From a virus: a stretch of DNA of 38,332 nt. The stretch is from positions 1-38,332 of the IMG/VR virus record IMGVR_UViG_3300045738_001810. One strand, 5' to 3'. The notes beneath the pieces are model-generated. The model was not told the origin of the DNA, did not search any database, and saw nothing but the letters and a program-made list of their open reading frames with translations. Each line of letters begins with the position of its first letter. The first letter of the stretch is position 1. This document shows positions 5,392 to 30,063 of this stretch, piece after piece. The translations under genes and the position numbers were made by a program.

Positions 5392-6434
5392 TAGATTTAT
5401 CTGAAGAGCAAAAAGATTTAATATTAAAAAGCTTTAAGTCTGACCCTAATATTATAAACATCACAAGAATTGTATTCGAAGATGATAAGCTTGATGGTCG
5501 GTCTAAAGAAGGGCGCACCGTCACAAAGTTCTTGGCAAAAAATGGCTACAAAGCTAAGACAACAAAACATGATAAAGCGAATGAGATAAAACTTACAGAA
5601 GGTCAGATTTCTAAAATTGAGGAGTTTAAGGAGGATGGTATGAACACCTCAGAAATCGCTGATATTATTTTTAATGAACCAGTAAAAAGGCTTTCAAAAG
5701 AGTGGAGAGTTATTAATGAAATAGTTAATCAAGAGAAGCAAGAAGAAAAGGAAAAAGGCCAAGACTCTTCTGGTAATTACATACCTCCCCAAGCCATTTC
5801 TAGAATAATTAAAAAAATCAATGATTCTACTGGTATTGGGCTGGAAGAAGGCAAGATGTCTAGAACCCACCACTCTTGCTGCAACAAACTAAGAATAAAT
5901 CTTAGCAACTCAAGATTTGTAGCGGTCGTTAATAATTATATTAATCCTAGAGACAAGGAATTATTTGAGCAGGAGATGATACGACTCACTTGGGACAAGC
6001 CAGACTTGACTGCAGATGAATTGAATTTGTATATGAACGTCTCTAAGGAAATTATTAATCTAGAATTAATTACTGGCCACCTACAGAAGCTGAACGAAAT
6101 GTTTGAGGATGCTGGACACCAAGATGAGATGACTGTTCGTTTAGCGGAGATAATTAAGGCTAAAAGCTCTGAGTACCATCAATGTGAGACTCGTATCGAA
6201 AACTTAACAAAGAAGCTCCAGGGGGATCGTGGTACGCGTTTAGCGAATCAACAAAAGGATACAGCGTCATTTCTGGCTATTGTCCAGCTCTTCCAAGAAG
6301 AGGAGGAAAGAAAAAATATGGTGCGTATAGCGGATATGCAAAAACAAACAATCAGAAAAGAGGCCGAGCGTTTGGAGGGTATGGCTGCTTGGAAGGCAAG
6401 AGTGCTAGGGATTGGCATTGAAGATGTCTTATAA
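5388..6434 (+). CDS. Helix-rich, possibly DNA-binding protein, 348 aa
   Basis: The N-terminal 120 residues hold two stretches that could be helix-turn-helix units (about 50-60 and 85-110, with TSEIADIIFNEPVKRLSKEW). The middle has a short HHSCC segment, and residues 230-348 are predicted long charged helices, probably coiled coil. No family is recognised. It lies between a sigma factor and the nuclease/terminase pair, so a small-terminase-like or transcription-cofactor role are the two main options. The gene overlaps its neighbours by 4 bases upstream and 11 bases downstream. Confidence 0.5.
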   Translation: MIDLSEEQKDLILKSFKSDPNIINITRIVFEDDKLDGRSKEGRTVTKFLAKNGYKAKTTKHDKANEIKLTEGQISKIEEFKEDGMNTSEIADIIFNEPVKRLSKEWRVINEIVNQEKQEEKEKGQDSSGNYIPPQAISRIIKKINDSTGIGLEEGKMSRTHHSCCNKLRINLSNSRFVAVVNNYINPRDKELFEQEMIRLTWDKPDLTADELNLYMNVSKEIINLELITGHLQKLNEMFEDAGHQDEMTVRLAEIIKAKSSEYHQCETRIENLTKKLQGDRGTRLANQQKDTASFLAIVQLFQEEEERKNMVRIADMQKQTIRKEAERLEGMAAWKARVLGIGIEDVL

Positions 6435-7341
6435 ATGCAAAGAATGCGGATTGGAATTCACTTCTGAAAAATCCCTACACGGTCACCTTAAAGCTCATAA
6501 AATTTATGTGGCAGATTACTATGTGAAACATTATCCGCGCTTTAATAAGCTCAACGGCAATCCCCTACCTTTTAAGAAAAAAGAAGAGTATTTCGAAAAT
6601 GATTTTATTAATAGATCACAACTAGTGGCTTGGTGCAAAAAATCCGACCCAGCCGAAGTCAAAGAATATATAATCGAATTAGCAAAAAGAAGAATAAAAC
6701 AAAAGAATTATAAAAATGCGCCTTTCCATATTGAGCTTTTAAAAAGACAGTTGCCAGACCTAGATGTTTTTAAAGAGCATTTCGGCACATATACAAAAGC
6801 TTGTGACGTAATGGGAGCCGAGCCAATATTTTATAAGGGTATGCCAAAGGAGTTTAAAGAAGATTTTGATGTCGAAGTATTAATCGATACTAGGGAGCAG
6901 CAGCCATTACAATTCCCCAAATCCCAAATTTTAAAATTAGATTTTGGAGATTACACATTAGGTGGCAAGGATTTTTCTAATACGTTTGTAGATAGAAAGA
7001 GTTCTGGCGATTTCTTATCCACGTTCGGGGGTCAGGTTGATAGGTTCAGGAAAGAAATGAAAAGATGCGTAGAGCTTGATAGTTATATGTATATAGTTAT
7101 AGAAAAACCAATAAAAGCAATTGAAAAGGAAGCTATTTTTACAAAAGGTAGAAGAGCGCCAAAACTGAGTTGGGTATTCTCTAATATGATTTCAATACAA
7201 CACGAGTTCGCTGGTAATTGTCAATTTATTTTTACTGACAACAGAATACATAGCGAAGAAATTATTCCCAAGCTTTTATATTTAGGTGACAAACTTTGGG
7301 ATGTAGATGTACAATATTTTTTAGATAAGGAGCAAATATGA
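6424..7341 (+). CDS. ERCC4-type nuclease with N-terminal C2H2 zinc finger
   Basis: A 305-aa protein. Residues 5-25 form a C2H2 finger (C5, C8, H21, H25; CKECGLEFTSEKSLHGHLKAH spacing). Residues 150-290 match the XPF/ERCC4 nuclease core: IDTREQQPL with D155 and E158, then GDY at 175-177, then VDRKS with D190-R191-K192 in place of the usual ERK. Such enzymes cut branched or structured DNA. It directly precedes the large terminase with a 4-base overlap, so trimming of replication intermediates for packaging is plausible. ATG 6424 is used rather than TTG 6412. Confidence 0.8.
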   Translation: MSYKCKECGLEFTSEKSLHGHLKAHKIYVADYYVKHYPRFNKLNGNPLPFKKKEEYFENDFINRSQLVAWCKKSDPAEVKEYIIELAKRRIKQKNYKNAPFHIELLKRQLPDLDVFKEHFGTYTKACDVMGAEPIFYKGMPKEFKEDFDVEVLIDTREQQPLQFPKSQILKLDFGDYTLGGKDFSNTFVDRKSSGDFLSTFGGQVDRFRKEMKRCVELDSYMYIVIEKPIKAIEKEAIFTKGRRAPKLSWVFSNMISIQHEFAGNCQFIFTDNRIHSEEIIPKLLYLGDKLWDVDVQYFLDKEQI

Positions 7342-9188
7342 GTTGGGATACAGGAAATCAAAAGCCGCTAGATAGGGAAGATATAAATAAACAAATTTTA
7401 GATCTTGATGGTTACCTTGAGGATAACAAAGCTAAGTATTACTTGTACAAGTTCCTAAAGGATAATGTAACATTTACAACAGAATTACTCACTGGGGTAG
7501 AATTATTTCCATTCCAACATATGGCTGTAAAGGCCATGATGGAGAACGATTACTTTTTGGGAGTATGGTCCCGAGGTATGTCCAAGTCCTTCTCTACGGG
7601 CATTTTCGCTTTACTAGACGCTATGCTAAACCAAGGGGTTCATATAGGTATTATTTCAAAGTCTTTTCGACAATCAAAAATGATTTTCCGTAAAATTGAA
7701 GATATATCTCTAGATAAAAAAGCAGAATTATTCAGACAATGCATTGGTAAGGTCAGCAAATCAAATGATGAGTGGTCGATGCAGATTGGTAAGAGTAGAA
7801 TCACAGCTCTACCTCTTGGTGATGGCGAAAAACTTCGTGGTTTCCGTTTTCAAAGAATTATTGTTGATGAGCTTCTGCTTATGCCAGAAAAAATTTTGAA
7901 TGAAGTCATTTTGCCTTTCTTGGCTGTTGTAGAAAACCCACAAGAAAGACAAAAAATTAGCGATGCAGAAGACGCTATGATTGCTGCTGGCAAAATGACA
8001 GAAGAAGAACGTACGGAATGGCCCTCCAATAAAATGATAGGGCTTTCGTCGGCATCTTATAAGTTTGAATATTTGTATAAAATGTATCAGGCTTATGAAA
8101 ATATGATCTTTAATCCTGGCGCTAAAAACCAAGGCAGAAGATGTATTATGCAGTTTAGTTATGATTGCGCCCCTAAAGCTTTGTATGATGAAAATCTTAT
8201 AACTCAAGCAAGAGGTACTATGAGCCAGTCTCAAATTGACCGAGAATTTAATGCTCAATTTACAGATGATAGCGCTGGTTATTTCAAAATAAGCAAGATG
8301 GCTGAATGCACTATTGAAGATGGAGAATCTCCAGCGGTTGAAGTAGGCGGAGAAGAGGGTGCTGAATATATCCTAGCATTTGACCCATCATGGTCTGAAT
8401 CTGAAGCTTCTGATGATTTCGCTATGCAGGTTATTAAGCTTATACCAGAAAATAAAAAAGGTGTTGTAGTTCACAGTTACGCTCTTCCTGGCACAAACCT
8501 AAAGAAGCACATGACTTACTTTAAATATCTTATTGATCATTTCAATATAATCATGGTTGTAGGTGACTACAATGGCGGCGTGCAATTCATGAATTCCTGT
8601 AACGAAAGTGACTTATTTAAAAAAGATAGACTGGAAATAGGAATGTTCGACGCTGGTTTGGACAACCCGCACGATTATGTAAAGGACCTGAAAGAGGCAA
8701 GAAGAGGTTATAATGTATCAAATAAAACTATTTGTTACTTAAGAAAACCAACTTCCGTTTGGATTAGAAATGGTAACGAAATGTTACAGACTGCTTTCGA
8801 TAGAAAAAAACTTTATTTTGCAGCTACAGCTATGGACGACAATTATTCGATCCAAAGAGCTAAAAAAATACCAATAAAAGATTTAAAATTCTCCAAATAC
8901 GAAGACGAAAAGAACGCTGGCGCAAAAATGATTGAATTTGTTGAACACCAGAAGGATATGATCGACCTAACAAAGGCTGAATGTGCTTTGATTCAAGTTT
9001 CTAGTTCTGCTGGCGGTACTCAAAGTTTTGATTTACCTAGCAACCTAAAAAGGCAGAAGGGAGTAGATAGACCGAGAAAGGATTCCTATTCAGCTCTAGT
9101 ACTAGGTAACTGGGGAATGAACATATATTACGACATGATGGACATACCAGAGGAAAGCAATCATGGCTTCACTCCTATGTTTATTTAA
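7338..9188 (+). CDS. terL: Terminase large subunit
   Basis: A 616-aa packaging motor. The N-terminal ATPase has a Walker A-like SRGMSKS at residues 78-84 and Walker B IIVDE at 174-178. The C-terminal RNase H/RuvC-like nuclease has its acidic triad at about D349 (LAFDPSW), D410 (VVGDYNGG) and D582 (RKDSYSAL). It pumps DNA into the prohead through the portal and cuts the concatemer. The length fits the family. It follows the ERCC4 nuclease with an ATGA overlap and is separated from the portal gene by a 52-base control region. Confidence 0.95.
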   Translation: MSWDTGNQKPLDREDINKQILDLDGYLEDNKAKYYLYKFLKDNVTFTTELLTGVELFPFQHMAVKAMMENDYFLGVWSRGMSKSFSTGIFALLDAMLNQGVHIGIISKSFRQSKMIFRKIEDISLDKKAELFRQCIGKVSKSNDEWSMQIGKSRITALPLGDGEKLRGFRFQRIIVDELLLMPEKILNEVILPFLAVVENPQERQKISDAEDAMIAAGKMTEEERTEWPSNKMIGLSSASYKFEYLYKMYQAYENMIFNPGAKNQGRRCIMQFSYDCAPKALYDENLITQARGTMSQSQIDREFNAQFTDDSAGYFKISKMAECTIEDGESPAVEVGGEEGAEYILAFDPSWSESEASDDFAMQVIKLIPENKKGVVVHSYALPGTNLKKHMTYFKYLIDHFNIIMVVGDYNGGVQFMNSCNESDLFKKDRLEIGMFDAGLDNPHDYVKDLKEARRGYNVSNKTICYLRKPTSVWIRNGNEMLQTAFDRKKLYFAATAMDDNYSIQRAKKIPIKDLKFSKYEDEKNAGAKMIEFVEHQKDMIDLTKAECALIQVSSSAGGTQSFDLPSNLKRQKGVDRPRKDSYSALVLGNWGMNIYYDMMDIPEESNHGFTPMFI

Positions 9189-21474: not shown

Positions 21475-24400
21475 ATGGCAAAGGCAAGAATACCAGTAGA
21501 GTTTGATCCAGTAGTGACTTCCAAGGTCGATGCGGCATTGGCTAGAATACAATCCAAGGCTAAAGGTATTGATTTTGGTGGTGGAGCCAGATCCCTTGAA
21601 AAACTCTCGCGGCCTCTAGGGAAAATAACAGGACAGGCTACGGAATTTCAAAAATCATTAGAAGCTTCTAATGCTCGTGTTTTGGCTTTCGGTGCTTCTG
21701 TAGCTGTCATAAACAAGCTTTCTCAAGCCTTTGGCGCTCTTGTCGGGAATACAATTAAAGTAGAGGCCACCTTCGCCAAAATTAACACCATTCTTGGCGG
21801 CACTGAAAAACAATTACAACAATTTGGTAATGGTATTTTTGCTGTAGCCCAGAAAACAGCCACGTCATTCGATGATGTAGCCGTGGGCGCTCTTGAATTA
21901 GCTCGTCAAGGCTTGAGTGTCGAAGAATCTCTTTCTAGGGTAGAGACAGCCTTGAAGCTTGTTCGTGTCGCTGGGGTTAGCTCAGAGCAAGCGGTGGCTG
22001 GTTTAACTGCAGCTATCAAAGGCTTCGAAGGTGCTGGTTTAACCGTTGCCGCTATTGGCGACAAGCTATCGGAAGTTGATACAAAATTTGCTGTATCTAC
22101 TGAGGATTTGATTAATGGTCTTGAGCGAGCGTCGGCATCTGCCCGTGTAGCTGGTGTTTCCTTTGACGAGCTTTTGGCTGTTGTTACGACGGTACAGGAA
22201 AGAACTCAACGTGGTGGTGCTGTTATTGGTAATGCATTTAAAACAATTTTTGCTAGACTAGGTAGGACAGATACTCTGGTTGCACTAGAAGACCTAGGCA
22301 TTAGTGTTTTAGATACTCAAGGTAATGTTAGATCAGCTATTCCACTGTTCCAAGAGTTAGCTGTAGAACTAAACAGACTTGGATTAAAAAGCGTTGAGGC
22401 TGGGGATATTATTCAAAAGGTCGCTGGTGTTCGCCAGAGAGATATTTTAATTAGTTTGGTTGAGGATTTAAATTCAAGCCAAAGTCAATTTGCAAAAGCT
22501 TTACAAACTTCAGCGACCGCTGCTGGAGCATTGGATTCGAAAAACAATTCACTCAATCAAACCCTGGAAGCCTTAATAAATAATTTGGTTGTGGGTGGTC
22601 AAAAACTAGCATCTGTTTTGGGTGAACTTGGTTTTACAGATAAAGTAGGGGATATATTGGAATTTTTTGGTGCTGTTGTCAACGGAATCACTGACCTTTT
22701 ACAAGGAGAGTCTCTTGGTGCTAAGTTTGCCCAAGGTCTAGTTAGGGGAATCGGTGGGGTTTTAACAGTCCCTGGTTTGGCTCTTATTGGCGGTATATTT
22801 ATAAAACTATTTGTAGACTTAGCTAAATTTGGAGCCTCGTCTCTAGGTAGTTTGCTGGGTATAAACAAAGCGTCGCAGGAGCAAAATGCTTTGCAGCAGT
22901 CTGTTTTGCAGACGCTGTTTCAAAATGAAAATGTACAAAGAGAGATTTTAGCTCTTGAGGGGAATAAGGTTGCCCAAGAACAACTACTTTTAAGAATTTA
23001 TAACCAACAGGTAGCCGCTTTAGCTAGAGTTCAAAAAGCAGCAGCGATAGTAACTCCTGCATTATTTGGTGCTGGGCTAAGAGGCGGATCTGAAGGCGTC
23101 ACTAGGAAAGGCGGAAGAGCTGCTGGTGGGTTTATCGCTAGTGAATCTCGTGATGTTTCTCGCGGGGTAGGCGGTGCGCCATCTAGCGCTAAGGTTGTTT
23201 CGATTCCTAATTTTGCTTTTGGTGGCGGTAAGCGCGGGACGATGGTCGCTAATACTAGCGAATACGTTGTGCCAAATTACGCTGGCGGTGGAGATGCTAT
23301 ATTTAATCAAGATATGGTTAAGACTATGGGTCTTCCTGCTGGAGCTAAGAAGTTGAATGCTGCTGGTGGGTTTATTCCGAATTTTGCCGCACCAAGAAGC
23401 TTGGAAAGATTAAGGGGACTGGCGAAGGGCAGAGGACCAAAAGCTCTTGAGGCGAAAGCAGAACTAGCAAATAGACAAAACCAAAAATCTTCTCAAAAAC
23501 TTATATACGATCCTCGTTTTGCTATGGTAGTTCCACAAGTTTTGGGCGCTAAGCAGCAAATACAGGGAACGAGAAAAGGCAAGAAGGTGGCTTTTGATTT
23601 GGTTGGCTATGAACCTGGTGTTGGTTCTAGGGTTAAAAATGACGAGCAGTTGGACCAATCTACTAGAAAATTTGCATTGGGTCTAGCAAACCAACAAGCG
23701 GGTCTAATGGGTGGCCCGCCACAGGCGAGTAAAATTTTAAAATTAGCAAATTCTGGAGCAATATCGGCTTTATCTGGAACTATTTTTGAGACAGCGGTGA
23801 GTTCTTTGTTATCTTCAAAGGATTTTGATTCAAGGTCTGAAATTTCTGCTTTTGACTTTGTTGGAAGTGGTGCAAATTCAAAATTAAAAAAACTTTTTCC
23901 ACAATTGGGGGCTGCCACACAAATAGAAGCTAAGATAAGACCCAGTCCAGATAATAAAAAAAGCATGTTTGATAAAGTGTTGAAGGCAACAGGTAATGCT
24001 GCTGGAGGTTATATCCCAAATTTTGCTGGCGGAGCTTTAGATCAAGCAGTCGCAAGAGAGCAATCTGCTGGTCTTCCAATAAACCAAATAAGAATTAATC
24101 AAAGCGGCAAACTACGTAACTCGCAAAACCCAATGGGTCTTGCTGTTACAAATACCAGAGACGAGCCAACTGGAGCTATTCCAAATTTTGCTGCTGGAGG
24201 AAGATCGACGCCAGCAACGCCAGGAGGTTCTTCTGATGGGGGCTTTGGTGGTGGGATGATAGCCGCTTCTACTGGGCTTTATTTCTTGAGCAGTGCGTTA
24301 AGTACTGCAGAAGGTGGTATTGGCAAATTTATTAGTCAAATAGCTCAAGCTGCTTCTGCTTTGTTCGCCCTCAATTTATTGAAAGGGCCAGTGGAAAACA

Positions 24401-26631
24401 TTGCGGCTAAGTTGAGTGGCTTTGGAACAAAAGTAGCTACATTTAATCCACAAGCCCCTGGAAAAAGAGCAGGACTTAAGGGCGGCTTAGGCAGAGGTAT
24501 AGCTGGAGTTGGCCGTGCGCTTCCTGGCATTGGTACTGCAGTTGCAATTGGCGCTGTCTTAGCTCCATTAGTTTTAGAGTTAACAAAAACAAAAACAGGA
24601 TTTGAAAGACTAAACGAAGAACTCAAAAATATTGATCTGGGAGAATTATCGTCTGGGTTAAAAGAAGCTTCCGCAGTTTTAAGGTTGGCATTTGTCGCCG
24701 ACTTAAAGGCGGCTAAGGATAAAGCAAATCTTGCTGCAAAATTAGGCGTTAAGGCGGATGCGGATATAGGAGAAATACTCGAAAAACAAATAAAAGGCTT
24801 AACGGGCATCAATAAAGGGTTTTTTGGCGGCTTAAAAGATAAAGAAACATTAAGTGCGTCTTTGGCAAAGGTTGGAGACAAAGATGCTTTGCAAGACATA
24901 ATAACCGCGAGTCAAAAAGACGTAAAAGAGCGTCAAACCTTTAGCAGTGGTACTACTATGGGAGGTACGGACAGCAGAATCGTAACCGTCAAGCAGTTTG
25001 ATGCAGAGTTGTTTGCCGAAAACATGATCAAGGCAATTGATGCTATTGATGCCGCCGCCAAAAAAGCTGCCGATACAGCCTTAATAGTTGCATCTGGTCT
25101 TGGCGAAGGCGCTTTTACAGGAGGTAAGGCAAAAAAGGATTTTAAAGAAAACATAGATCAAGGAAAATTTGCAGCTGGTGGATTTGGAAAGGGCGGAGCT
25201 AGATCCAACATAAGAGGTGGAGAACTTAAACTAGCCAAAGCTGTAACAACAGTAAGGAAAGTGGGTCTAGAAAATGAGATAGCTTTAAAGAAATTTCTCT
25301 TAGAGAAAGCTCAAGAAGAATTCAAAATCACACAGGACTACGTAAAATCAATCAAAGATGCTAGTGTTTTTAGTAAAAAACAGAAAGATTTTATAGAAAG
25401 TAGAGTTAAATCGGGTGCTGCTTTATTATCAATCCAAAGTGATCTAGAAAAATTGGGCATGTCGTTGACGGGGCAAGCTAAAACTGATTTTGACCTTGCT
25501 GTAGGTAAGGCAGAAAACCAAAAGAAGGTATTAAAAGACAAGTATGAAGAAGTAAAATTACAACAAGAAATCAATGACCTTAATAAACCGCAAGGATTTG
25601 GCGAGGGAATAAGGAAGGGTCTTGGTAATTTAGAAAATGATATAGTCTTCTTCGGTGATGAGTTGGGCGAAAATATACCAGCACAATTTTCTGACAACTT
25701 AGGGTCGGCTATTAAAGAAGCAGTCAGCGAGGCAAAAACCCTAGATCAGGCTTTGTCCGATGCTGGAAGAAACTTTTTAGGATTTATAAGAGATGCGTTT
25801 CTAGAGCAAGCAGCGGCCCAAACGACATCTGCATTGTTTGGGAGTTCGGAAGGCAAAGGTGGTTTATTAGGAGGAGCGAAAAGCTTGTTTGGAGGCAAAG
25901 GCGGCGCGGCTTCTCCAGATGGCACTGCGGGTAATCCAATATACACAGCAACTTCTGCTTCAGGCGCTAATCCAGTTAGTGCTTTAACTGGAGAAGGAAA
26001 GGGCGAGGGAATTTTTTCAAAACTCAAAGACACTCTGATGGAATCTTTTGGAAGGTTGAAAACCACATTTAGCGATTTGTTTGGAGGATTAAAAGAAGGG
26101 CTTGGTACTATTTTTAAAGGACTTACCACTAATTTGGGCAGCTTATTCACTGGAGGTAGCGGCGGCGGGGGAATTGGCGGACTTTTTACCACTGTATTAG
26201 GTGCTTTTGGTTTTGCAAATGGAGGTCCAGTAGGATTCGCTAATGGCGGATCAGTTGGGTCAACGGATACCGTCCCCGCAATGCTAACCCCTGGAGAATT
26301 TGTTATGAAAAAATCTGCGGTCGAGAAATATGGATCTGGGTTTTTATCAAGCATAAATGAGGGTGTTATGCCAATGCGAGGATTTCAGAATGGTGGCGTT
26401 GTTAGCCCTGTTTCTGCCGAGGCTGGGACTACATCCAATTCTGCATCTCAAGTAACAAACTCTTCTGACTTTACTTTTAATATTCAAGATGGCGGGGCAG
26501 AGCAAGCGGGCGAACAAGGCAGTGACGACCAACAGCGCGATTTTGCGCAGAAAGTCAAGGCAGCGGTTACCACAGTTGTTCAAGAGGAATCCAGAACTGG
26601 CGGGACATTAAGCTACTTATACAAAAAATAA
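21475..26631 (+). CDS. Tape measure protein with embedded nuclease-like domain
   Basis: A 1718-aa protein. Residues 60-360 match the TP901-type tape-measure core (helical, with AVAQKTATSFDDVAVGALEL and AGVSFDELLAVVTTVQERT); hydrophobic segments follow near 415-460 and again near 955-985. Four IPNFA motifs occur at residues 577, 634, 847 and 902. Between the second and third lies a 210-residue insert with E772 (GTIFETAV), D794 (AFDFVG) and E818-x-K820 (QIEAKI), the PD-(D/E)XK nuclease pattern. The C-terminus has coiled coils, Gly-rich stretches and PAMLTPGEFVMKKSAVEKYG, common in tape measures. It sets tail length and probably enters the host during infection. Confidence 0.9.
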   Translation: MAKARIPVEFDPVVTSKVDAALARIQSKAKGIDFGGGARSLEKLSRPLGKITGQATEFQKSLEASNARVLAFGASVAVINKLSQAFGALVGNTIKVEATFAKINTILGGTEKQLQQFGNGIFAVAQKTATSFDDVAVGALELARQGLSVEESLSRVETALKLVRVAGVSSEQAVAGLTAAIKGFEGAGLTVAAIGDKLSEVDTKFAVSTEDLINGLERASASARVAGVSFDELLAVVTTVQERTQRGGAVIGNAFKTIFARLGRTDTLVALEDLGISVLDTQGNVRSAIPLFQELAVELNRLGLKSVEAGDIIQKVAGVRQRDILISLVEDLNSSQSQFAKALQTSATAAGALDSKNNSLNQTLEALINNLVVGGQKLASVLGELGFTDKVGDILEFFGAVVNGITDLLQGESLGAKFAQGLVRGIGGVLTVPGLALIGGIFIKLFVDLAKFGASSLGSLLGINKASQEQNALQQSVLQTLFQNENVQREILALEGNKVAQEQLLLRIYNQQVAALARVQKAAAIVTPALFGAGLRGGSEGVTRKGGRAAGGFIASESRDVSRGVGGAPSSAKVVSIPNFAFGGGKRGTMVANTSEYVVPNYAGGGDAIFNQDMVKTMGLPAGAKKLNAAGGFIPNFAAPRSLERLRGLAKGRGPKALEAKAELANRQNQKSSQKLIYDPRFAMVVPQVLGAKQQIQGTRKGKKVAFDLVGYEPGVGSRVKNDEQLDQSTRKFALGLANQQAGLMGGPPQASKILKLANSGAISALSGTIFETAVSSLLSSKDFDSRSEISAFDFVGSGANSKLKKLFPQLGAATQIEAKIRPSPDNKKSMFDKVLKATGNAAGGYIPNFAGGALDQAVAREQSAGLPINQIRINQSGKLRNSQNPMGLAVTNTRDEPTGAIPNFAAGGRSTPATPGGSSDGGFGGGMIAASTGLYFLSSALSTAEGGIGKFISQIAQAASALFALNLLKGPVENIAAKLSGFGTKVATFNPQAPGKRAGLKGGLGRGIAGVGRALPGIGTAVAIGAVLAPLVLELTKTKTGFERLNEELKNIDLGELSSGLKEASAVLRLAFVADLKAAKDKANLAAKLGVKADADIGEILEKQIKGLTGINKGFFGGLKDKETLSASLAKVGDKDALQDIITASQKDVKERQTFSSGTTMGGTDSRIVTVKQFDAELFAENMIKAIDAIDAAAKKAADTALIVASGLGEGAFTGGKAKKDFKENIDQGKFAAGGFGKGGARSNIRGGELKLAKAVTTVRKVGLENEIALKKFLLEKAQEEFKITQDYVKSIKDASVFSKKQKDFIESRVKSGAALLSIQSDLEKLGMSLTGQAKTDFDLAVGKAENQKKVLKDKYEEVKLQQEINDLNKPQGFGEGIRKGLGNLENDIVFFGDELGENIPAQFSDNLGSAIKEAVSEAKTLDQALSDAGRNFLGFIRDAFLEQAAAQTTSALFGSSEGKGGLLGGAKSLFGGKGGAASPDGTAGNPIYTATSASGANPVSALTGEGKGEGIFSKLKDTLMESFGRLKTTFSDLFGGLKEGLGTIFKGLTTNLGSLFTGGSGGGGIGGLFTTVLGAFGFANGGPVGFANGGSVGSTDTVPAMLTPGEFVMKKSAVEKYGSGFLSSINEGVMPMRGFQNGGVVSPVSAEAGTTSNSASQVTNSSDFTFNIQDGGAEQAGEQGSDDQQRDFAQKVKAAVTTVVQEESRTGGTLSYLYKK
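23203..24192 (+). repeat. IPNFA repeat region in the tape measure gene
   Basis: Four copies of I-P-N-F-A start at codons 577, 634, 847 and 902 of the tape measure. The second and third have the fuller form AAGG(F/Y)IPNFA. They separate compact non-helical segments of 57, 213 and 55 residues. The 213-residue segment is the nuclease-like one. The repeats look like linkers or processing signals bounding inserted domains. Confidence 0.7.
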
Positions 26632-29600
26632 ATGAGTCAATCTACAAACAGATACGATAGAGATCACAATATAGACGGTCCTGTTTTCCCATTCACTTTT
26701 GTACCAGAATATGGATCAAAAGTGTCTTTTGAAAATAAAAACGTTCATTTTAACACAGCGGATAATTATTACAAAAAATTCTCAAAAGGCGTAAACGGAA
26801 CTAATTTAAAATTTAATTTAAAGTTCTCCAATAAAACAGAGGATGAGGCTAGGTCGTTTTTGCATTTTATAGAAGAAACTCTAGCTTCTAGTGGTGGCGA
26901 TTTTAATTTCAATACAACAGGTTCTAGTGGAGTAGAAATAGCTTTCCCAACTGGGTCTATATACAAAAACATAGACGAATTATTAATACAAAATTATGAC
27001 TTTAAATTTCATAACGGCCTTTTTGATATAGATTTAAATTTATTAAAAAATGGATACTCATCATTATTTAATTGGAGCGGGTCTTCTTATTTAAATACTG
27101 CAAATTTTTATTCTGGATGGGAAACTGGGATTGATTACAAGGAATTCGATGTAATTTACTACTCAGGATATGCCGAACAAAATTCTGATTATTTTGAAAC
27201 TGGAAATTATTATAGAATAGCAGATAGAAGAGAAAACTTTTACTACTGCAACTCTGGTCATGCATCCGAATCAGAAAACAGCCCTACTGGGTCAGGCTCA
27301 GCATGGTCGAAATCTTTTTTTTATGAAATAGATGATGATATATCTATAGGGTCAGATAGGTCGATTAATATTTTTGAGCTAAAGGATTCTTTTTCTTCTT
27401 TTATTAAGCAGGATCAAAACGGCGGACTGATAAAGGATTTATCTTTATCTTTGAAGAATAGATCGGACAAAGAGGTTAGGTCAATTATGCACTTCATGGA
27501 AAAACATGAAGATTACAGACCTCTTGAGTTAACCCTACCCCAGCTGTACAATAAGAAGAAATTTTTTGTAATAAAATCTTTGGATCATAAATTTGTATAT
27601 AAGGATTGCAATGACTTAGATTTGACTCTTGATGAAATATTTTTATTTAAAAAGCCTGATCTTTTTGATAATTATAGAACGATTTCAACTGATCCTGAAT
27701 TCTCTATGAATGTAGTGACTACACTCAATAATCAGCCAATACAAATTTCTGGTGAAAATGAAAGTGGAAATGATATAAAGATTGGGTGGGGAGATGGGCA
27801 GATAAGCACTATCACTGGGTATAACGACCCTGAAATGAGGCATGTATACGCAACCACTGGAAATTACAACATAAGGATAAGCGGTTACATACCAAATATC
27901 CGTCTACCTTATCATAAGCGAAAGGTTACGTCAGTCAATCAACTTGGTGTTGTAGGTTGGGATGACCTGAGCGAGGCTTTTTATGGCTGGGACAATATGA
28001 TTAGCTTTACGGCGGGCAATACAGATACTTCCTTGGTCACCAACATGGATGGAATGTTTCGGGATTGTTATGACTTAGTAAACTTAGACATGGATGGATT
28101 AGATTCTTCTAGCGTTACTGGTATGCAGCATATGTTTAGGAACTGTCAGTCATTAGATGCCCCAAACACAGATTTTTCTAAATTAGACACTTCTTCTTCT
28201 GTTGATATGAATTGGATGTTTAGCGGCTGCCGTGGTGTAGTTAATATGGATTTGTCTAGTTTTGATACATCTTCTGTAACTGGTATGCGTGCTATGTTTG
28301 ATCTTTGTGATGATTTGACGGGGTTAAATGTTTCTAATTTTGATACATCTTCGGTTGTAGATATGAGTAATATGTTTGCTGATTGTCGGGAATTAATATC
28401 TATAGATTTATCAAGCTTTAATACCCCCTTAGTCACTACTATGAATAACATGTTCAGTTACAGTTGGAGCTTAACTAGTATAGATTTATCTAGTTTTGGC
28501 TCATCTGCGGTTACTGATATGTATCGAATGTTTTACAATTGCTACGTTGCTAAGAATATAGATTTATCCAACTTTAATACATATGCGGCTACTAGCACGA
28601 AAGAAATGTTTTATAACTGCGCAAACTTAACTGATGTAAATTTCTCTGGCTTTAACACTTCCTCAGTTACCAATATGTCGAAAATGTTTCAATTTTGTAG
28701 AGATTTAACGGTTTTGGATCTTTCTGATTTTGACACTTCCTCGGTAACCACTATGAGAGAGATGTTCGATCGGTGTAGAAATATAATTAATCTGGATTTA
28801 TCCAGTTTTGACACGTCTTCTGTTGTTAATATGTTTCAAATGTTTGCAAACTGTAACAGGTTAACAAGTCTAGACGTATCTAGTTTTGATGGATCTTCCG
28901 TTGTTGATCTAAGTGAAATGTTTTTCGGTTGCGCCGACTTAACAGGTTTAGATCTGTCGAGTTTTAACACACCGTCTGCCACTAATATGCGGAAAATGTT
29001 TTCAAACTGTAATGACTTGATAGAATTAAATCTTTCTAATTTTAACACTTCCTCGGCCACTGATATGTATCAAATGTTTGGGCAGGCGTACGATTTAACA
29101 GGTTTGGATTTATCTAGTTTTGACACTTCCTCGGTCACCCTTATGACTAATATGTTTACAAGTTGCGACAGCTTAACGAGTTTAGATTTGTCTAATTTTG
29201 ATGGGTCTTCTGTTACCAGTGTAGCTTCGATGTTTAGCTCAACTAGCAACTTAAGTAGTGTAGATCTATCCAACTTCAACGCTCCTTTGCTTACAACCAC
29301 AAACAACATGTTTTCTTATTGCCCAGACTTAACTGGTATAAATTTATCTGGTTTTGATGCACCTTCAGTAACCAATCAAAGTCACATGTTTGCAGGTTGC
29401 AGCAGCCTCCTAAGTCTAGATTTATCTAGTTTTAGCGGCTCCTCCGCTAGTAGTACGTATCAAATGTTTGCATTTTGTTATAGTTTAACAAGTCTAGACG
29501 TATCTAATTTTAATACCTCCTCGGTCACTAGCATGTATCAAACGTTTGCAAGCTGTAATAGTTTAACAGGTTTAGATTTATCTAGTTTTGACACTTCCTC

Positions 29601-30063
29601 GGTTAACACCATGTCTCAAATGTTTGTAAACTGTAACAACTTAACAAGTCTAGACGTATCTAATTTTAATACCTCCTCGGTTACCAACATGTATAACATG
29701 TTTGAAGATTGTAACAATTTAACAGGTTTAGATTTGTCTAGTTTTGACACTTCCTCGGTCGTTGACATGCGGCAAATGTTTGATGATTGCAGTAGCTTAA
29801 GTGATATAATTGGTGTAGATCAATTCAATATAGAGGCTATTACCTCAACATCTAGACTGACATATTTTTGCAGAGGCGTGACTCTACCTACACCCCGCTA
29901 TGATTCTTTGCTGATAGCATGGGACGCTCAGAGCGTAAAAAGCTCAATGACTAACGTTCATTTTGGAGGTAGCTTATACACAGCTGGGGGAGCCGCAGAG
30001 GCGGCCAGAACAAATCTTGATACAGTCGATTTATGGACTATTATTGATGGAGGCCCTGCGTAA
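26632..30063 (+). CDS. Tail protein with PKD-like domain and BspA/DUF285 repeat adhesin
   Basis: A 1143-aa protein. Residues 40-150 and 265-345 are two related tail-protein modules (each with the pattern KFSNKTEDEARSFLHFIEE or KNRSDKEVRSIMHFMEK followed by a beta part). Between them, residues 165-235 resemble a small aromatic carbohydrate-binding module. Residues 360-425 look PKD-like (IGWGDG, HVYATTGNYNIRISG). Residues 463-1053 hold about 23 repeats of 24 residues of the DUF285/BspA type (LDLSSFDTSSVTNMxxMF). The end, with WTIIDGG, is typical of such bacterial surface proteins. The start follows the tape-measure stop directly. Host binding is the likely role. Confidence 0.8.
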   Translation: MSQSTNRYDRDHNIDGPVFPFTFVPEYGSKVSFENKNVHFNTADNYYKKFSKGVNGTNLKFNLKFSNKTEDEARSFLHFIEETLASSGGDFNFNTTGSSGVEIAFPTGSIYKNIDELLIQNYDFKFHNGLFDIDLNLLKNGYSSLFNWSGSSYLNTANFYSGWETGIDYKEFDVIYYSGYAEQNSDYFETGNYYRIADRRENFYYCNSGHASESENSPTGSGSAWSKSFFYEIDDDISIGSDRSINIFELKDSFSSFIKQDQNGGLIKDLSLSLKNRSDKEVRSIMHFMEKHEDYRPLELTLPQLYNKKKFFVIKSLDHKFVYKDCNDLDLTLDEIFLFKKPDLFDNYRTISTDPEFSMNVVTTLNNQPIQISGENESGNDIKIGWGDGQISTITGYNDPEMRHVYATTGNYNIRISGYIPNIRLPYHKRKVTSVNQLGVVGWDDLSEAFYGWDNMISFTAGNTDTSLVTNMDGMFRDCYDLVNLDMDGLDSSSVTGMQHMFRNCQSLDAPNTDFSKLDTSSSVDMNWMFSGCRGVVNMDLSSFDTSSVTGMRAMFDLCDDLTGLNVSNFDTSSVVDMSNMFADCRELISIDLSSFNTPLVTTMNNMFSYSWSLTSIDLSSFGSSAVTDMYRMFYNCYVAKNIDLSNFNTYAATSTKEMFYNCANLTDVNFSGFNTSSVTNMSKMFQFCRDLTVLDLSDFDTSSVTTMREMFDRCRNIINLDLSSFDTSSVVNMFQMFANCNRLTSLDVSSFDGSSVVDLSEMFFGCADLTGLDLSSFNTPSATNMRKMFSNCNDLIELNLSNFNTSSATDMYQMFGQAYDLTGLDLSSFDTSSVTLMTNMFTSCDSLTSLDLSNFDGSSVTSVASMFSSTSNLSSVDLSNFNAPLLTTTNNMFSYCPDLTGINLSGFDAPSVTNQSHMFAGCSSLLSLDLSSFSGSSASSTYQMFAFCYSLTSLDVSNFNTSSVTSMYQTFASCNSLTGLDLSSFDTSSVNTMSQMFVNCNNLTSLDVSNFNTSSVTNMYNMFEDCNNLTGLDLSSFDTSSVVDMRQMFDDCSSLSDIIGVDQFNIEAITSTSRLTYFCRGVTLPTPRYDSLLIAWDAQSVKSSMTNVHFGGSLYTAGGAAEAARTNLDTVDLWTIIDGGPA
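28018..29793 (+). repeat. About 23 tandem 72-bp DUF285 repeats
   Basis: The repeat unit encodes 24 residues with conserved Leu/Phe and the MF-x-x-C motif, and the unit count comes from the MF positions. The last five units (about 29480-29790) are nearly identical in alternating pairs at the nucleotide level, so the array has recently grown by pairs of 144 bp. Earlier units are more diverged, and two lack the Cys (MFSYS, MFGQA). Confidence 0.85.

Follow-up and report, generated by a model that had tools for sequence, protein, structure and literature searches.

The tape measure protein (TMP) is the ruler that sets the length of a phage tail, and it is commonly viewed as both a ruler and a conduit for DNA. 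In the PD-(D/E)XK enzymes, the active-site residues follow a fixed order (a helix acid, a strand aspartate and a (D/E)xK motif in the next strand), and the canonical core is alpha-beta-beta-beta-alpha-beta. In the polyvalent proteins, known from phages and conjugative elements, a single polypeptide thought to be injected with the DNA combines several enzyme-like domains that are unrelated to one another (Iyer et al. 2017, PMC5512222); the word "tape" is absent from the main text of that paper. The Sle1-type effectors of the actinobacterial contractile injection systems comprise a tape-measure-related protein with an exchangeable functional domain, and one exchanged domain inhibits the growth of E. 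coli, presumably via nucleic acids (PMC13277306).

We analysed a whole stretch of 38,332 nucleotides of viral DNA (hereafter the window), which encodes a 1718-residue TMP. This identification is based on matches to tape measure profiles and on the next gene, which encodes a Phage_min_tail N-terminus. The protein bears IPNFA-type motifs at residues 577, 599 (VPNYA), 634, 847 and 902, and we propose that the segment enclosed by the motifs at 634 and 847 is probably a PD-(D/E)XK-type nuclease domain, which occupies a fixed, IPNFA-bounded slot of the TMP and is exchanged as a cassette. The features on which the analysis relies are as follows.

21475..26631, + strand: TMP open reading frame, 1718 residues (profile matches to PF10145, 3.7e-25, spanning residues 124-302 of the N-terminus, and to PHROG tape measure families, to 2.6e-42)
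22759..22815, + strand: hydrophobic segment, residues 429-447, ahead of the slot, a possible membrane helix (Kyte-Doolittle 2.17)
23203..23283, + strand: IPNFA (577-581) to VPNYA (599-603), constant block ahead of the slot (motif positions)
23296..23373, + strand: AIFNQDM motif (residue 608) and 26 residues up to the slot (next IPN motif at +25/+26 in 76/76 relatives)
23374..23388, + strand: IPNFA 634-638, left border of the slot (swap breakpoint, L030 versus L071)
23389..24012, + strand: cargo domain, with predicted helices, a beta-meander and an E..D..ExK..K core (AlphaFold pLDDT 84.9, pTM 0.73; alignments A2 and A4)
23788..23790, + strand: E772, in GTIFE, predicted helix 760-779 (alignment column, 49 rows)
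23854..23856, + strand: D794, in FDF, short predicted strand (alignment column, 49 rows)
23926..23934, + strand: E818-A-K820, predicted strand (alignment columns, 49 rows)
23974..23976, + strand: K834, in the helix past the strand (47/49 rows; the 14-residue spacing between ExK and this lysine is repeated in A5)
24013..24027, + strand: IPNFA 847-851, right border of the slot (motif positions)
24028..24192, + strand: post-cargo conserved block of about 55 residues, with NPMGLAVTNTRDEP at residue 885, ending in IPNFA 902-906
24520..24576, + strand: hydrophobic segment, residues 1016-1034, past the slot (Kyte-Doolittle 2.05)

The window comes from an aquatic long-tailed phage (siphophage) whose clade is uncultured. 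Its terminase large subunit (7338-9188) shows only about 25% identity to the nearest annotated phages (the Bacillus phages Slash, Stahl and Staley), a divergence that points to a deeply separate, uncultured phage clade. Directly preceding the terminase gene, with a 4-base overlap, an ERCC4-type nuclease with an N-terminal C2H2 zinc finger is encoded at 6412-7341. The gene following that of the TMP (26632-30063) combines the N-terminus of a minor tail protein (PF05939, below the cut-off) with a long DUF285 repeat array (422 bits). The antisense open reading frame at 23607-23966 was regarded as mechanical.

An alignment of 49 rows (16-95% identity to the window segment) left only five charged positions above 85% conservation, namely E772, D794, E/D818, K820 and K834. 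The E772 column contains 46 E, 2 D and 1 Q; aspartate is found at 794 and lysine at 820 in all 49 rows; position 818 is occupied by 40 E and 9 D, i.e., by an acidic residue throughout; and K834 is kept in 47 rows. An earlier note on this DNA had read the order of PD-(D/E)XK nuclease residues in E772, D794, E818 and K820, which lie exactly where it placed them (window positions 23788, 23854, 23926 and 23932), and it would have given up this reading had they not been conserved. They are conserved (46/49, 49/49, 49/49 and 49/49), and the order holds as a charged pattern that recurs in the 49 rows on the expected structural elements: E772 belongs to the first core helix (predicted helix 760-779), D794 to a two-residue strand and E818 to the strand 816-819, with K820 just beyond. 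The five charges, which follow one another in the expected order as E, D, E/D-x-K and K, argue for a nuclease, and the signature reads, at the level of residues, as that of PD-(D/E)XK. Membership in this superfamily rests on the residue signature because the predicted fold is incomplete and unmatched.

Two AlphaFold runs, based on alignments of 35 and 49 rows, yielded models that agree (pLDDT 80.5 and 84.9; pTM 0.69 and 0.73). In these models residues 634-851 are predicted to form a separate mixed alpha/beta domain flanked by the IPNFA motifs, in the order helices, three-stranded meander, helices, E772 helix, D794 strand, E818 strand and K834 helix, the meander standing ahead of the core. The view that this segment differs from the helical remainder of the TMP was thus borne out as regards its mixed alpha/beta nature, but much of it is still helix. 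As to the alpha-beta core that had been anticipated, a helix-strand-strand-helix arrangement surrounds the conserved residues in both models, but the canonical core is only partly present: the beta-1 region (about 782-788) has a pLDDT below 50, no strand lies past the last helix of the domain in either model, and no PD-(D/E)XK structure was matched. Searches with the two models using Foldseek (PDB, BFVD) and VIA-align 2 returned nothing above background and no PD-(D/E)XK entry, a result with which this fold is still compatible. None of the best matches was significant: they comprised alpha/beta sandwiches resembling GTPases (Z ≤4.2) and one nucleoid-associated protein, matched over 66 columns in BFVD.

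Sequence searches gave a similar picture. No profile in Pfam, PHROGs, NCBIfam or PADLOC matches the cargo domain, nor does any PDB sequence, the searches of the latter with single proteins and with profiles returning noise only; no significant Pfam match was obtained for any cargo domain tested; Mrr_cat is absent from the window in the profile search; and a search with the segment in the annotated genomes of phages, plasmids and prokaryotes gave no match and no cultured relative. The cargo domain therefore adds a family that is missed by standard profiles.

Only two close relatives were recovered by a direct search for the segment. A scan of viral contigs for DNA coding AGG[YF]IPNFA yielded more than 119 stretches (a lower bound), nearly all of them in long TMP-like open reading frames whose motifs stand around residues 570-650 and then recur further on. 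The window itself has four matches to the DNA pattern of the motif, against 0.03 expected from shuffles. The enrichment of IPNFA relative to composition does not serve as evidence here, since most contigs were selected by this motif. One large cluster of the inter-motif segments contains the window segment. Of 150 non-redundant segments between IPNFA motifs, 86 contain the residue motif in order, as compared with 4 of 3000 shuffled segments. Profile comparison, run without the IPNFA ends because shared ends inflate the scores, linked the group pairs 0-3, 0-1 and 0-18 at 95-97% probability (reversed profiles, ≤2%), with GxxFE, FD and (D/E)xK in register in the pairs 0-3 and 0-1. The distant subfamily A5, whose invariants are G197, E201, F225, D226, K253 and K267, is similar to the window group in having G-xxx-E, FD, K, and then K at +14.

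A second scan made use of DNA coding AIFN[QR]DMV, the motif just ahead of the slot. Together the two scans gave 76 distinct TMPs with the wider form of this motif, and in every one of them an IPN motif comes next, 25 or 26 residues on. Where the post-slot motif NPxGLxVxNxRDEP is also present (53 TMPs), the distance between the two flanks ranges from 277 to 791 residues, the window showing the shortest, and every slot is filled. Among 71 untruncated TMPs, picked by a motif outside the cargo domain, the nuclease-like superfamily was assigned to 68 by HMM and to 2 more by motif, the HMMs having been trained on the same loci, so that these figures are a classification and not an independent discovery; the last one (L139) has another D..ExK-like domain ahead of the end of its contig stretch. 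The nuclease-like domain is therefore no oddity of the window TMP, since it occurs in practically all TMPs sampled in this clade. Other types of slot cargo, in L082, L139, L055 and L079, also look by eye like D..ExK nucleases.

Further domains share the slot in some relatives. The nuclease-like domain is often preceded by a P-loop domain, recognisable by GPxGxGKST and, further on, ILSGAxRTKxGG (L015:6421-7032, L131:3925-4416 and others), with weak AAA matches only. Segments between IPNFA motifs look by eye like protein kinases (L125:3858-4442, L022:6760-7419, L098:4762-5415) or, when starting with LYRGMS or VFHGTT, like ADP-ribosyltransferases (ART; L022:7915-8550, L084:1703-2242). All three kinds were recognised by motif or by eye, and none has a significant profile match. 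On the other side of the slot, the post-cargo block (AxxxEQAAGLPINQIRINQSGKLRNSQNPMGLAVTNTRDEPTG) recurs in most relatives, with its motif in 53 of 76; it has no Pfam match over 24028-24192 and is possibly a linker or a processing module.

The cargo domain is exchanged independently of the protein that carries it. Pairwise identities of the N-terminal and cargo regions are uncorrelated (Spearman rho 0.03, 53 TMPs), and which type of cargo a TMP has does not depend on its backbone. L030 and L071 share 99.5% identity over 420 N-terminal residues and 18% in the cargo, and their DNAs hardly differ until the IPNFA codons are reached, past which they are unrelated; the swap contigs stem from different samples, and a chimeric assembly of one pair is possible. 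The window and L001 illustrate the reverse case, with a third-position identity of 99% in residues 721-851, as compared with 43-68% in residues 1101-1718 and 56-60% in residues 301-560. In L001 and L002 alike, residues 561-633 show 100% identity. With an omega of 0.15-0.30, the cargo is under purifying selection. The proposal of the earlier note that the IPNFA repeats serve as domain borders was confirmed by the fixed spacing in 76 TMPs and by the DNA breakpoint at the IPNFA codons: the motifs are both domain borders and recombination borders, and the domain is swapped as a cassette. The other role that it had suggested for them, as cleavage sites, is a guess.

The nuclease cassette is thus supported by the A5 signature, the profile links, the occupancy (68/71), the omega values, the swap breakpoints, the lack of empty slots and the hydrophobic segment ahead of the slot. 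Against a nuclease stand the lack of a structural or profile match, the vague beta-1, the missing terminal strand and the extra meander. Alternatively, a domain with a different fold, enzymatic or metal-binding and acting for instance in processing or nucleotide binding during tail assembly or DNA entry, may have converged on E..D..ExK..K, for the models are confident (pLDDT 85) and match no PD-(D/E)XK structure, and their best, insignificant matches are the GTPase-like sandwiches and the nucleoid-associated protein. We regard this as unlikely, because the order, spacing and flanking hydrophobics of the five charges suit PD-(D/E)XK well, and because the cargo of L082, L139, L055 and L079 also looks like D..ExK nucleases. 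It is still less likely that the domain is a structural spacer or assembly domain devoid of catalysis, whose conserved residues maintain the fold. Its place in a virion structural protein and its near-constant presence would fit such a role, but the invariance is confined to the active-site set while the remainder drops to 16-25% identity, and unrelated cargo types swap freely on an unchanged backbone.

The sharp DNA breakpoints at the IPNFA codons, together with the contrast in third-position identity between the cargo (99%, window versus L001) and most of the C-terminal half (43-68%), also call to mind a homing or self-spreading endonuclease, which would cut TMP genes bearing a different cassette and be copied in by repair at the IPNFA borders. 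Homing elements normally have empty alleles, yet none was found here (0/53), for which reason we rank this possibility low and consider it highly improbable; the alternative alleles differ in type but are almost never without a domain, cassettes of the P-loop, kinase-like and ART-like kinds reside in the same protein, and the domain stays in frame within a structural protein.

Returning to the nuclease cassette, a swappable domain with active-site residues suggests that the tail also brings an enzyme into the infected cell. We tentatively propose, with somewhat less than even confidence, that the TMP of this clade is an effector carrier, in which a fast-evolving nuclease of a new family is near-obligatory in an internal slot, swapped at IPNFA and delivered together with the genome, at times accompanied by P-loop, kinase-like or ADP-ribosyltransferase-like partners. 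In such an enzyme the metal would be held by E772, D794 and E818, and K820 would be the catalytic lysine. At infection, the TMP would enter the inner membrane with the slot beside its hydrophobic segments. A hydrophobic segment occurs ahead of the slot in 40 of 42 TMPs and behind it in 27 of them, and none lies inside the slot in these 42 proteins; if these segments span the membrane, as hydropathy would have it, the slot is a loop on one side of it. The cargo domain would then reach the cytoplasm at the same time as the phage DNA or shortly before it, and it would most likely act prior to phage gene expression, cutting host, plasmid or rival-phage nucleic acid, or serving an entry step on DNA. 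Host DNA is a possible target; among the window's other genes are those for a dNMP kinase and for the small chain of ribonucleotide reductase. A rapid turnover of domain types is what a changing target, or a changing host factor that opposes the enzyme, would be expected to bring about. Two points speak against this reading as a whole: the enzyme would adjoin the phage's own DNA, which may be spared by modification, by timing or by a substrate other than duplex DNA; and several folded 200-residue domains abreast would hardly fit the tail lumen.

If true, a fixed and almost invariably occupied slot with an exchangeable enzyme-like domain would make the TMP an early-acting effector carrier, and it would explain how siphophages that have no head-ejected proteins act before gene expression. 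The many natural cassette variants on near-identical backbones make the role of the domain testable by comparison.

How does this locus compare with the known systems? With the PD-(D/E)XK superfamily (Mrr-like and related restriction or repair nucleases) the cargo shares the GxxFE helix, the strand D, the (E/D)xK of the next strand and the basic residue of the next helix, but it differs in having no profile or fold match, a vague beta-1, no final strand and a preceding meander, and in residing inside a TMP. Like lambda gpH and other siphophage TMPs, the window protein has a PhageMin_Tail region, hydrophobic segments and a presumed role at the inner membrane; it differs from them in the enzyme-like slot between IPNFA motifs. 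Our literature search found no paper joining IPNFA or PNFA with a tape measure, and the papers naming a tape measure and "XK nuclease" seem, judging by their titles, to be genome descriptions or unrelated work. The polymorphic toxins likewise combine a constant carrier with recombining enzyme domains, at a C-terminal tip instead of an internal slot, and their carrier is not a phage virion protein. In principle, the nearest systems appear, by analogy, to be the polyvalent proteins and the Sle1 effectors. What sets this locus apart from the former is that the carrier is a tape measure, that its single, fixed slot has short motifs as borders, and that a nuclease-like domain is near-obligatory there; the window TMP has the nuclease-like domain only, and its relatives add P-loop, kinase-like and ART-like domains, as recognised by motif. 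As compared with the latter, in which the exchangeable domain is C-terminal, belongs to a bacterial nanomachine and is in one case accompanied by an immunity protein, the domain described here is carried by a phage, in an internal slot.
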